Assembly (NCBI GenBank): GCA_002354735.1
Contig: DEMD01000007.1
Location: 517,418 to 581,417, forward strand
Direction: 5' to 3'
Length of the DNA: 64,000 nucleotides
Source of the DNA: Gammaproteobacteria bacterium UBA2679
GTDB taxonomy: Bacteria > Pseudomonadota > Gammaproteobacteria > Pseudomonadales > Oleiphilaceae
Positions within the stretch are counted from its first letter, which is position 1. Each line of letters begins with the position of its first letter. Under the pieces are notes generated by a model that had not been told where the DNA came from, searched no databases, and saw only the letters and a program-made list of their open reading frames with translations. Both the position numbers and the translations under genes were made by a program. Positions 56,060 to 59,585 of the stretch are shown here, piece after piece.

Positions 56060-57085
56060 CTACTCGGTGACGGCTGCAAGATCCTTGCGGAACTGGTCGA
56101 GCAGCGCCTCGCCACTTTTTCCGGTCATTTCGATAAATTTCTTCTCGACCTGTGGTGCACGGGCGCGAAACAGCTCGATCTGCTCTTCATTCAAACGAGT
56201 AACGGTGACCTTGTCACTGGCTTTCTGGATTTTTGCCAGGGCATCATCCGCCAAGCCGTCGATGTGCTTGATGATTTCCTCGAACGCATAATCGGCCGCA
56301 TTGCGAATCAGCTTCTTGTCTTCATCAGGCAGGCCATCATAGAACTTCTTGTTGGCCATCGAGGCAGTAGTGAACCAGCCGTGGCCGGTGAAGACCAGGT
56401 TGGGTGAGACCTCGTACAAACCCGCGGACTCGATCCAGAAGATCGGGTTTTCCTGACCCTGGATCATGTTGGTCTGCAGCGCACCATAGACTTCCCCCCA
56501 AGGCAGTGGTGTCGGCGTGGCCCCGAATGCATCGTAGGTTTCCGACAGCAGCGGGTTGGTCATCACCCGGATTTTCTTGTTATCAAACTCCGCTGGACTC
56601 GTCACCGGCTCATCGACGGTCACGACCATCTCCCCTTCGGGATACATTTTTAGCAGCTCAAGACCGTTCTCGGCATAGAGCTTGGGGAAAGCTTCGTTGA
56701 TCGCCTTACTTTCTCGGAAAAACTCGATCACCGTGTCCATACTCGTAGGCATCAGATACGGAATAAAGAAGATTTGGGCTTCAGGAATCAGCGAGCCGGT
56801 GAACCCCGGTGACTGGTTGACGAAGTTGAGAATTCCGGACTGTGTCTGCTCCATGATGTCGTCGGACTCACCGAGTTCGCCGAAGCGGAAAATCTGCAGG
56901 GTGTGGTCGGAATTTTCTTCAATATATTCTTTGAATTTATAGGCATAGACGTCCTGGACGTCGCCCTCATACTCTTCATGAGCATAGCGCCAGTTGGCCG
57001 CGCTGGCGGAGTTCACCGCAGTCATCGCTGCAAATACGATCACCGAAACTCCAGCCAGTTTCTTTAGCTTTAATGAGGTATTCAT
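56060..57085 (-). CDS. teaA: Ectoine-binding TRAP receptor, TeaA-like
   Basis: A 341-residue periplasmic receptor with a signal peptide (cleavage near ASA at 27-29). The mature part starts [15 protein letters not shown] and continues with [68 protein letters not shown] and [10 protein letters not shown]. As I recall the Halomonas elongata TeaA sequence, the match is close over the whole length, including the N-terminal Glu-Glu and the Arg in [10 protein letters not shown] that contact ectoine. It should supply ectoine or hydroxyectoine, compatible solutes used against osmotic stress. GGAGAC precedes the ATG. Confidence 0.86.
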
Positions 57086-57393
57086 GGGGTCGTCTCCGCT
57101 AATTGTTCCTCAGGATTTTTCTGTATCATTAACAGAGACTGCTAAAAAAATGACTTTTCCGCAAGGAAATCGGGCAAATAGATGCGAGTTATTAGGGGCT
57201 CGGACATCTCGGAGACATGCCGCGGGTATCCTCTCAAGCCGGATCAAGCGCAACCGAAAACCGGCGATAGTCAGGAAAATGGAACGCCAGCCGCCCTTAA
57301 AAAGACTAGGATGAAAGGTCGTGGGACTCATGCCGGCCATGGCGCCAAAGCTCATGACCTACTACTCAATCAAACACGAGCTATCGAATAACC
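57086..57393. promoter_or_regulatory. Divergent spacer between teaA and the Rho-like gene
   Basis: This 308-bp region must drive teaABC leftward and the Rho-like gene rightward. It is AT-rich near teaA, with a T-run at 57145-57151 on the lower strand, and GC-richer beyond. Short reading frames here (for example 57182-57391 on the plus strand) have no family signature and no ribosome binding site. In the frame of the Rho-like gene an in-frame TGA lies 12 codons upstream of its ATG, so no hidden N-terminal domain is joined to it. Confidence 0.45.
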
Positions 57394-58359
57394 ATGACGA
57401 GAACGACATTAGGGTTAACCCGGAAACGAAACAAGGACGCTAAACCAGCGGCTCAGGCAGCCGAAGCGGTGTCCGAGGCTGATCCACAAAAGCGGTTCCT
57501 GAACGGTGTAGTTATCAATCCAGCGCCGGGGATTCGCCTGGAGTCAGGTTCAGAAGAACTCTCGGTGCGCGCGATGGATTTGATCACGCCGATTGGCCTG
57601 GGGCAGCGAGGTTTAATCGTTGCACCGCCGGGGTCTGGGAAATCGACAGTTTTAAAACACATCTGTCAGGCGGTGGGAAAGGCGTATCCAGAGATCAAGC
57701 TTTACGCGTTACTCATAGATGAACGACCCGAAGAGGTCACTGATTTCAAGCGCAGCGTGCCGGCTGAGGTACACGCGTCTTCTTCGGATGAAAGTTATGC
57801 GCATCATGTTCGCATTGCCGATGAGCTTCTCGATACCGCGCGCCACCAAGCTGGTGAGGGTCAGGACGTCATGATTGTGATCGATTCACTCACGAGGCTT
57901 TCGCGTGTGCATAATGCGGAGCGAAAGGGCGGCGGTCGTACCATGTCTGGCGGGCTTGATGCTCGAGCGATGGAGATCCCGCGGAGGATGTTCGGCGCTG
58001 CTCGAAACCTTGAGAATGGCGGCTCGCTGACCATTTTGGCAACCGTTCTTGTTGATACCGGCAGCCGTATGGACCAGGTGATATTTGAGGAGTTCAAGGG
58101 CACAGGGAATATGGAACTGGTGTTATCAAGGGACGTTGCGCAGCAGCGAATCTTCCCCGCGCTGGACATTTCGAAAAGCAGTACACGCCGTGAAGAGCTG
58201 CTGCTGGATCCGAAAGATTTAGACAAGATCAGAGGGTTGCGCCGGGCGCTCAGCGGTCTCAAACCGCTAGAGGGCACAAAAAAGCTGGTTGAGCTGCTTG
58301 AGAAGTACCCTACGAATGCCGAACTTCTGAGAAATATTCCCGGCTCGCCCAGCGATTGA
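57394..58359 (+). CDS. Rho-like hexameric ATPase lacking the RNA-binding N-terminus
   Basis: A 321-residue protein that aligns with the ATPase half of transcription terminator Rho and lacks its N-terminal domains (about 130 residues in E. coli). Residues 1-33 are charged and unlike Rho. Conserved blocks: RAMDLITPIGLGQRGLIVAPP (60-79), Walker A APPGSGKST (77-85) where Rho has APPKAGKT, LLIDERPEEVT (106-116) with the catalytic Glu110, Walker B MIVIDSLTRL, GGSLTILATVLVDTGSRMDQ, FEEFKGTGNMEL and the arginine finger region STRREELL (Arg265). The Q-loop reads KGGGR, with Arg at the usual Lys. ATP binding and ring assembly look intact, but primary RNA loading must differ. Codon use is less GC-rich than upstream genes. 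Confidence 0.85.
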   Translation: MTRTTLGLTRKRNKDAKPAAQAAEAVSEADPQKRFLNGVVINPAPGIRLESGSEELSVRAMDLITPIGLGQRGLIVAPPGSGKSTVLKHICQAVGKAYPEIKLYALLIDERPEEVTDFKRSVPAEVHASSSDESYAHHVRIADELLDTARHQAGEGQDVMIVIDSLTRLSRVHNAERKGGGRTMSGGLDARAMEIPRRMFGAARNLENGGSLTILATVLVDTGSRMDQVIFEEFKGTGNMELVLSRDVAQQRIFPALDISKSSTRREELLLDPKDLDKIRGLRRALSGLKPLEGTKKLVELLEKYPTNAELLRNIPGSPSD

Positions 58360-58421
58360 ATCCGCGCTACGGGTCTGGCCGGCGTCGGCCATAATTTAGC
58401 TGCGGCATCCGTGTCCATCGG

Positions 58422-59585
58422 TTAGAAAACAGCAGAAGTCGTTGAAGCGTTAGTGGGCAGTTTTTGATTTTCGAGGGCAAGGCTGATATTGCCTCTGGAT
58501 TCCAACAGCTGCGCGGCAATCCGGGTATCCGCCGTGTAATACAATGACGCGAAGCCGAGACGGTTGCGGCCCAGGTTGTGGAATACCATGCCGAACGAAA
58601 TATCCCCGGCGCTGAAGCGCTCATGGTTGTCGGCAAAATATTGGGCGGGTTTGCTGTATTCTTCATCCACCATCAGCGAGCGGACGCGGCCAGGGCCCCC
58701 GTGATAGGCCTGAATCAGAATAAGCCGATACAGCTGTTCCCGCTTGTCCACAGGTAAATGGCCAAAGCGCGCCAGGAAAGGGGCTTGCAACATGCGGTGA
58801 TTGCGTTCGAACAGCCAGAGCGCACAGTCAATCTGGGCAATGCGATGCAGGTGCTTATTCGCCGGCACACCGCAGTCCTTCAGGACCACGGGAGTCAGTT
58901 GCAGGATACCGCGCGCCTTCGCTTTGGACTTGGCTTCACGAACGCCCCCACTTTCGATGATAAGAATGCCCGCCAGATCCGGCAGCAGGTTTATGGGGAG
59001 ACTGATCCGTTTTTGCTGGGCGCGGCGCTGGTACACCGCGTAGAGAGTGTCATGGATCGAGACCGGCTTTTTCGCGGTGCCGACTGTGATACCGTCCCAG
59101 GTGCCATTGAGTCGCCCGTCCGGATGCTCACCCAGGTAGCGCTGAATGGCCAGAGGCAGGTCCACATTGGGCTGATGACACCGGATCGCGAAAGGATAGC
59201 CGAAGGTGTTGGCATTACCCTCCACCCAGGCGTGAACTCGCCCCTCCCGGACCATGTCCTGACGAGTGGCGTTCAATCGTAGTTGCGTTTCAAAGGAATC
59301 GATGGCGTCATCGATATAAGTCAGAAAGGTGCCACGTCTATCGAACAGCACATGACGATTTCCAAGGGTACAGTGGCCGGAACGGGTCAGTATCCAGCGC
59401 CTGACAGTCACTACGTTGTCATACACGCCCTGACTTTCCGCATAGGGTTTGTCGCGGACCACCTCGGCCCAATTGAGCTGCGGCAGCACCGGGCCTTCCG
59501 CCAGGGCAAAGTTGTGATTCAACAGGGCCCAAAGGATGCCCACCACAGCGCCCCACCAGGTTCTGACGAGTTTAATGACCCCCAT
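58422..59585 (-). CDS. SLT-domain lytic transglycosylase-like protein
   Basis: A 387-residue exported protein. The N-terminus has a hydrophobic signal or anchor (residues about 10-30). Residues about 35-195 are an unassigned domain with four cysteines. The C-terminal half is a goose-lysozyme-like SLT domain: the catalytic Glu211 in GILIIESGG, then ARGILQLTP, where family members have G.MQ..P, and a helix-rich tail with YHGGPGRVRSL. It should cleave peptidoglycan in the periplasm. I start at the ATG at 59585 after CGGAG; the frame extends to 59633. It converges on the Rho-like gene with 62 bp between stops. Confidence 0.82.
   Translation of the reverse strand: MGVIKLVRTWWGAVVGILWALLNHNFALAEGPVLPQLNWAEVVRDKPYAESQGVYDNVVTVRRWILTRSGHCTLGNRHVLFDRRGTFLTYIDDAIDSFETQLRLNATRQDMVREGRVHAWVEGNANTFGYPFAIRCHQPNVDLPLAIQRYLGEHPDGRLNGTWDGITVGTAKKPVSIHDTLYAVYQRRAQQKRISLPINLLPDLAGILIIESGGVREAKSKAKARGILQLTPVVLKDCGVPANKHLHRIAQIDCALWLFERNHRMLQAPFLARFGHLPVDKREQLYRLILIQAYHGGPGRVRSLMVDEEYSKPAQYFADNHERFSAGDISFGMVFHNLGRNRLGFASLYYTADTRIAAQLLESRGNISLALENQKLPTNASTTSAVF

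Follow-up and report, generated by a model that had tools for sequence, protein, structure and literature searches.

A family of free-standing Rho ATPase cores with a basic N-terminal tail, coexisting with full-length Rho and tentatively assigned to ribosome or RNA maturation

The short rho gene described here belongs to a family of Rho paralogues that are free-standing, evolve separately and under selection, and coexist with full-length rho in related genomes. Its members comprise the motor half of Rho and a basic tail that is predicted to be disordered. Their function we infer: they may be a second RNA translocase in rRNA/ribosome or RNA maturation and not a terminator, a reading to which we give a probability of roughly 0.37. 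The common view of Rho is that of a single conserved terminator whose targets are decided by its N-terminal domain; a widespread, selected free-standing core shows that the motor half leads an independent existence.

The stretch of DNA analysed (the window, 64,000 nucleotides) contains at 57394-58359 on the plus strand an intact short rho gene, which runs from ATG to TGA and encodes a free-standing Rho ATPase core of 321 amino acids. The features referred to below are:

57355..57357, plus strand: in-frame TGA stop, 12 codons upstream of the short rho ATG
57394..58359, plus strand: short rho gene, free-standing Rho ATPase core, 321 aa (ORF, Pfam, NCBIfam, tree, structure model)
57394..57513, plus strand: tail, residues 1-40, beginning with basic MTRTTLGLTRKR; disorder predicted for residues 1-27 (pLDDT < 50)
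57628..57645, plus strand: Walker A, residues 79-84 (P-G-S-G-K-S) (sequence, tree rows)
57721..57726, plus strand: catalytic Glu E110 and Arg valve R111 (tree rows)
57916..57954, plus strand: Q-loop region, residues 175-187, with R182 (alignment; low pLDDT around)
58057..58074, plus strand: R-loop region, residues 222-227, with R225 (alignment)
58186..58188, plus strand: Arg finger R265 (alignment)

An earlier note on this DNA had argued from an in-frame stop 12 codons upstream that the start of the gene is genuine. This was confirmed, as exactly 12 codons lie between the TGA at 57355-57357 and the ATG and none of them is an alternative ATG, GTG or TTG start. Pfam analysis of the protein gave PF00006 above its cut-off, plus two P-loop matches below threshold, and Rho_N (PF07498) and Rho_RNA_bind (PF07497) were both absent at E ≤ 1e-3. 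PF07497, PF07498 and PF00006 were all present in each of the 120 listed matches to full-length Marinobacter Rho (the 120 best of 8000 scored). An AlphaFold2 model (single chain, 72 sequences) had a mean pLDDT of 86.7, with residues 1-27 below 50. Foldseek placed a solved Rho chain first for this model (rmsd 1.8 over 282 columns, TM 0.83 normalised by query length), and every one of the 50 listed matches was Rho. The description of the protein as a free-standing Rho core without the N-terminal RNA-binding domains is thus upheld by Pfam, together with the tree and the conserved catalytic set described below. The further statement that it starts directly at the ATPase half is right in that no N-terminal Rho domain is present, but the core follows a conserved, basic tail of some 40 residues. 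Within 57050-58480 neither a promoter-like site nor a plus-strand terminator-like site 3′ of short rho was seen, which is not informative.

In 73 of 78 gammaproteobacterial loci the protein starts with the motif M.[RK][KRTE].L, with the consensus MTRK(T/I)L(S/G)LKxKR, and the first 20 residues have a median net charge of +5 over these 73. The tails in Omnitrophota and Elusimicrobiota are variable, and rich in Arg, His, Gly, Gln, Asn and Pro. Their net charge was positive (+1 to +23) in all 42 tails printed, from 45 loci, although some are over-long because lengths were counted from the first in-frame start codon. The lost N-terminal domains of Rho are, therefore, replaced by a basic tail that is predicted to be disordered. 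The N-terminus of FinO has a basic stretch that may be similar.

In a maximum-likelihood tree of 106 rows, which is rooted for display and whose bootstrap was still short of full convergence, 73 short Rho rows are split from 32 full-length ones by a single branch (100/100 support). The window protein lies outside the full-length clade, across this branch, so the suggestion that short Rho homologues might form a clade separate from housekeeping rho proved correct. All 38 gammaproteobacterial short rows fall into a single clade (100/100), which is part of a larger group that also contains Omnitrophota and Elusimicrobiota; as the root serves display only, the direction of transfer between phyla can only be inferred.

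Residue counts were taken from the same 73 short and 32 full-length rows. Adding 101 to a residue number of the window protein gives the E. coli Rho number. K83 corresponds to Lys184 and R225 to Lys326, which are given as the P-loop and R-loop lysines in PMC8828861. K83 (Walker A), E110 (catalytic Glu), R111 (Arg valve), D164 (Walker B Asp), R252 and R265 (Arg finger) were identical in 73/73 short and 32/32 full-length rows, and the retention of the catalytic Glu, the arginine finger and the ring-forming blocks, read earlier from the one sequence, is borne out by this, E110 and R265 being among the invariant residues.

The Walker A motif is PPGSGKS in the window protein and GSGK(S/T) in most members of the short clade. 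Its departure from KAGKT had been remarked on previously and does mark most of the clade: position 80 (E. coli 181) is Gly in 67/73 short rows versus Lys in 27/32 full-length rows, with five short rows outside the gammaproteobacterial set keeping Lys. Similarly, 71/73 short rows have Ser or Thr at position 131 (E. coli 232), where Phe stands in 32/32 full-length rows. The Q-loop Arg, on the other hand, had been considered unusual and is not: 8/32 full-length rows also carry Arg there and 11/32 have Arg in place of the R-loop Lys, so that neither is distinctive of the short clade. Residue 181 of E. coli Rho is a bicyclomycin contact. A reading of short Rho as a bicyclomycin-resistant Rho, for which Gly at this position was the sole argument, was rejected.

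A genome scan, of which the best 80 of 576 loci were considered (55-90% identity), gave short rho in Marinobacter, Halomonas/Vreelandella, Marinomonas, Microbulbifer, Colwellia, Paraglaciecola, Endozoicomonas and others, and then in Omnitrophota and Elusimicrobiota. Fourteen carrier genomes were chosen from these 80 loci, and each had one full-length rho (700-714 bits) and one short core (341-374 bits). The full-length rho that the earlier note proposed to look for besides the short core is thus present in all 14 relatives' genomes searched, and in none of them was the short gene the only rho with a frameshift, or a decayed fragment, the two outcomes that the note had named as refuting it. Protein matches of 98% and 95% make Allohahella the probable host genus of the window. 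No Allohahella appeared among the named organisms (Marinobacter or broader labels) in the 120 best of 8000 full-length Rho matches. The start and length of short Rho are conserved across the family, and dN/dS was 0.06-0.15 in nine pairs of short rho genes, which is purifying selection.

Between the window gene and Marinobacter loci (L238-L240, L100, L110) dS was 0.37-0.55 for short rho, versus 1.10-1.53 for ahcY in pairs of the same kind. A recent transfer of short rho between Allohahella and Marinobacter was considered and rejected, as dS is low within Marinobacter too (0.295 versus 0.868 for ahcY in one pair): with a similar threefold ratio there, a slow synonymous rate explains the low values equally well. 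At synonymous sites short rho has diverged about a third as far as ahcY in such pairs, the one within Marinobacter included.

A separate observation from the search with full-length Rho was a 5.4-kb contig that encodes a Rho-like protein of 542 aa; this protein scored 981 bits when the query's own 420-aa match scored 918. It is possibly a partly duplicated or misassembled Rho.

The retained motor raises the alternative that short Rho modulates housekeeping Rho, short subunits joining its hexamer and, as they have neither the primary RNA site nor the polymerase contacts, weakening or redirecting termination. The conservation of catalytic and ring-interface blocks common to full-length Rho would suit such mixed hexamers, as would the presence of both proteins in 14/14 genomes, but the family is a deep, separate clade that has crossed between phyla and its members have only about 45-52% identity to full-length Rho cores. 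We therefore consider mixed hexamers unlikely.

The genes around short rho were then compared. In the window its neighbours by Pfam are a TRAP solute-binding protein gene upstream and a transglycosylase-domain protein gene downstream, and no rRNA/ribosome or RNA-helicase gene is beside it. The earlier remark that no paired gene is evident is accurate for the window but not for the family, where such neighbours are in excess. With ABC-F factors, DEAD-box helicase, rRNA pseudouridine synthases and RlmI-like methyltransferase as the neighbour classes, chosen after viewing the neighbours, a class gene was found within two places of short rho in 19/35 Omnitrophota and 26/78 gammaproteobacterial loci, compared with 3/35 and 2/78 at five to six places and 2/35 and 1/78 at seven to eight; 16/35 and 52/78 loci had none within two places.

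Fewer far genes enter these counts as contigs end, and the comparison was also made per gene. For Omnitrophota, 25/135 genes within two places belonged to the classes versus 5/169 five to eight places away (p = 8e-6), and for Gammaproteobacteria 28/298 versus 3/428 (p = 8e-9). Since loci share ancestry they were also collapsed into blocks, by a looser definition first, which was then tightened. Loose blocks (single linkage through any shared neighbour within eight places) gave non-significant differences (5/9 versus 1/9, p = 0.13; 5/23 versus 1/23, p = 0.19), and strict blocks (stricter families within five places) gave 15/62 near versus 0/62 far (p = 2e-5) and 24/86 versus 2/86 (p = 2e-6).

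Among the 129 genes within two places of the 35 Omnitrophota loci, Pfam identified 15 with ABC_tran_Xtn (the ABC-F linker), 5 pseudouridine synthases and 4 with Methyltrans_SAM; the 129 genes five to seven places off included 2 pseudouridine synthases and at most one ABC_tran_Xtn (outside the 25 families shown). The 146 genes directly beside the 78 gammaproteobacterial loci included 16 DEAD-box helicases and 5 pseudouridine synthases. Nine of ten neighbour representatives matched EttA/Uup, RhlE/CshA, RsuA, RluE, RluA-family or RlmI/RlmK-type models, with scores that for the most part fell short of the curated cut-offs. The arrangements vary (upstream, downstream, same strand, convergent); the gammaproteobacterial DEAD-box helicase is mostly convergent with short rho and not operonic, and at one Omnitrophota locus (L185) short rho, an RluE-like gene and a DEAD-box helicase are consecutive on one strand.

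A close RhlE-like subtype (at least 74% identity to a query from one Halomonas) was present in 15/293 genomes of the order; 13 of these 15, among which related genomes share both genes, also had short rho, within 10 kb in 11/13. The possibility that this helicase is a dedicated partner was rejected, given the shared kinship, two genomes (G325 and G285) that have the subtype without short rho, and a third (G251) in which the two genes are 325 kb apart; only the association was kept. An RsuA-like gene and the gene of the RhlE-like helicase lie next to each other in G251, divergently and with no short rho between them (L236, 6563-7315 and 7456-8763), and these two genes may therefore be linked independently.

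A protein family of about 75-98 aa is encoded directly downstream of short rho in 8 of the 34 Omnitrophota loci that have a gene at this position. Its members (e.g. L197:8877-9119) are basic and have a helix-turn-helix-like look, making them candidate partners. One was scanned against NCBIfam without a match and three against Pfam without a convincing one, and a profile search of the 78 gammaproteobacterial loci did not find the family. No partner gene was common to the whole short-Rho family in the loci examined.

The neighbour genes point to a role for short Rho, which would be a second RNA translocase, in rRNA/ribosome maturation or in an allied RNA-maturation assembly with a DEAD-box helicase. 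Short Rho would assemble as a homohexameric ring. A ring that keeps the central-channel RNA loops but is without the primary RNA site would need the basic tail or a partner to reach RNA, and the tail may either give rut-independent RNA loading or dock on a partner. According to PMC8828861, the N-terminal half of Rho holds the primary RNA site and the RNA-polymerase contacts. With this half removed, Rho-like termination would not be expected of short Rho, and the idea of a new regulator of termination, put forward in the earlier note, has found no support so far. That Rho and RhlE can share one RNA machine has a precedent in Caulobacter, where both proteins join the RNase E degradosome at low temperature (PMC5472812).

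This degradosome also suggests a role in RNA turnover, in which short Rho would be a helicase or translocase accessory of an RNase E type degradosome together with the RhlE-like helicase. The DEAD-box neighbour in Gammaproteobacteria fits such a role, but the ABC-F, pseudouridine synthase and RlmI-like neighbours indicate ribosomes rather than decay, and we regard turnover as quite unlikely. Less probable again is that short Rho is a terminator in its own right, loaded by an adaptor protein that would bind RNA and polymerase for it: the motor is complete and the protein of about 80 aa downstream in 8/34 Omnitrophota loci might be such an adaptor, but no partner gene occurs family-wide and the 80-aa family is absent from the 78 gammaproteobacterial loci by profile.

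To return to the maturation role, a fuller version of it, doubtful as a whole, would have the Rho motor uncoupled from transcription, perhaps in an ancestor among Omnitrophota or Elusimicrobiota, acquire a basic, disordered tail, enter ribosome biogenesis or RNA maturation and later be passed to marine Gammaproteobacteria. If true, rRNA would have a hexameric RNA translocase of Rho type to itself, acting alongside DEAD-box helicases and the enzymes that modify rRNA.

Short rho is patchy in marine Gammaproteobacteria and in the deep-branching, uncultured Omnitrophota/Elusimicrobiota. In samples that each include their centre genome, matches at the level of short Rho occurred in 1/143 genomes of the class (the centre genome itself, other matches having at most 52% identity), 32/293 of the order, 45/163 of the centre's family and 34/145 of Omnitrophota. 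The search of the 163 genomes of the family gave no short-Rho match above 92% identity. Two of the 32 copies in the order have stops inside the match (G227:C1:2771106-2771975, with two TGA and one TAA, and G296:C405:12546-13499, with one TAG), and some short rho copies may therefore be decaying.

Only 1 of 468 matching plasmid records, and none of 22 matching phage records, reached 60% identity to short Rho. The plasmid match comes from Spartinivicinus plasmid pB (L170:12001-12960; NZ_CP048880 54176-55135) and is surrounded by phage-like sequence; holin genes and small ORFs flank short rho, which stands alone on the opposite strand. A viral contig (L169:6001-6960) carries short rho in a similar layout, one side having been compared, and in these two places it looks like a phage passenger gene. 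A phage or plasmid origin of the whole family was rejected, as these are one plasmid and one viral contig and the other 467 plasmid records and all 22 phage records fall below 60%; occasional mobility is indicated instead.

On the same evidence, together with the patchy distribution, short rho might be a phage or plasmid passenger, e.g. a Rho antagonist, that is incidentally retained in chromosomes. This is very improbable in view of the scarcity of such records, the purifying selection on the chromosomal copies and the sharing of short rho with Omnitrophota. Finally, a decayed or frameshifted rho fragment, which the naming of such proteins as plain Rho by annotation pipelines might suggest, can be dismissed, being contradicted for the family by the real upstream stop, the conserved start and length, the separate clade, the dN/dS values and the full-length rho in 14/14 carrier genomes.

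The NCBIfam Rho model NF006886 matched the window protein above its cut-off (371.5 bits, cut-off 315), and TIGR00767 (349.5, cut-off 509.45) and the Rho2 'short form' model NF041509 (329.3, cut-off 628) fell below theirs. Among the 21 families matched in NCBIfam release 20.0 there was no model for the short clade, and the named matches were called plain Rho. No description of a family of free-standing Rho cores was found among the papers listed in full-text searches, most subscription papers lying outside these. Under automatic annotation a second Rho thus goes unseen, as it bears the name of the first, and studies of Rho inhibitors or Rho depletion in carrier species are affected by this. The family also makes it possible to test whether a Rho ring can act on RNA without the primary site, and whether Rho-type motors work outside transcription.

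The window protein has the three marks of the family, being a core without N-terminal domains, placed inside the short clade and preceded by a basic tail. It resembles housekeeping Rho in Walker A and B, the catalytic Glu, the Arg valve and Arg finger, the channel loops and the fold (TM 0.83), and differs from it in lacking Rho_N and the OB-fold RNA-binding domain, in having the basic tail instead and in belonging to a separate clade; most short members also have G where housekeeping Rho has K (E. coli 181) and S or T where it has F (232). Streptomyces Rho2, found on a plasmid (L178:1785-2867), is likewise a shorter second Rho, but it keeps the OB-fold (PF07497) and falls with actinobacterial full-length Rho, so that by the one Rho2 row in the tree its origin is separate from that of the short clade. 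FliI and the type III secretion ATPases share the PF00006 nucleotide-binding fold with the window protein, but their models score at most 86.1 bits on it against 371.5 for the Rho model.
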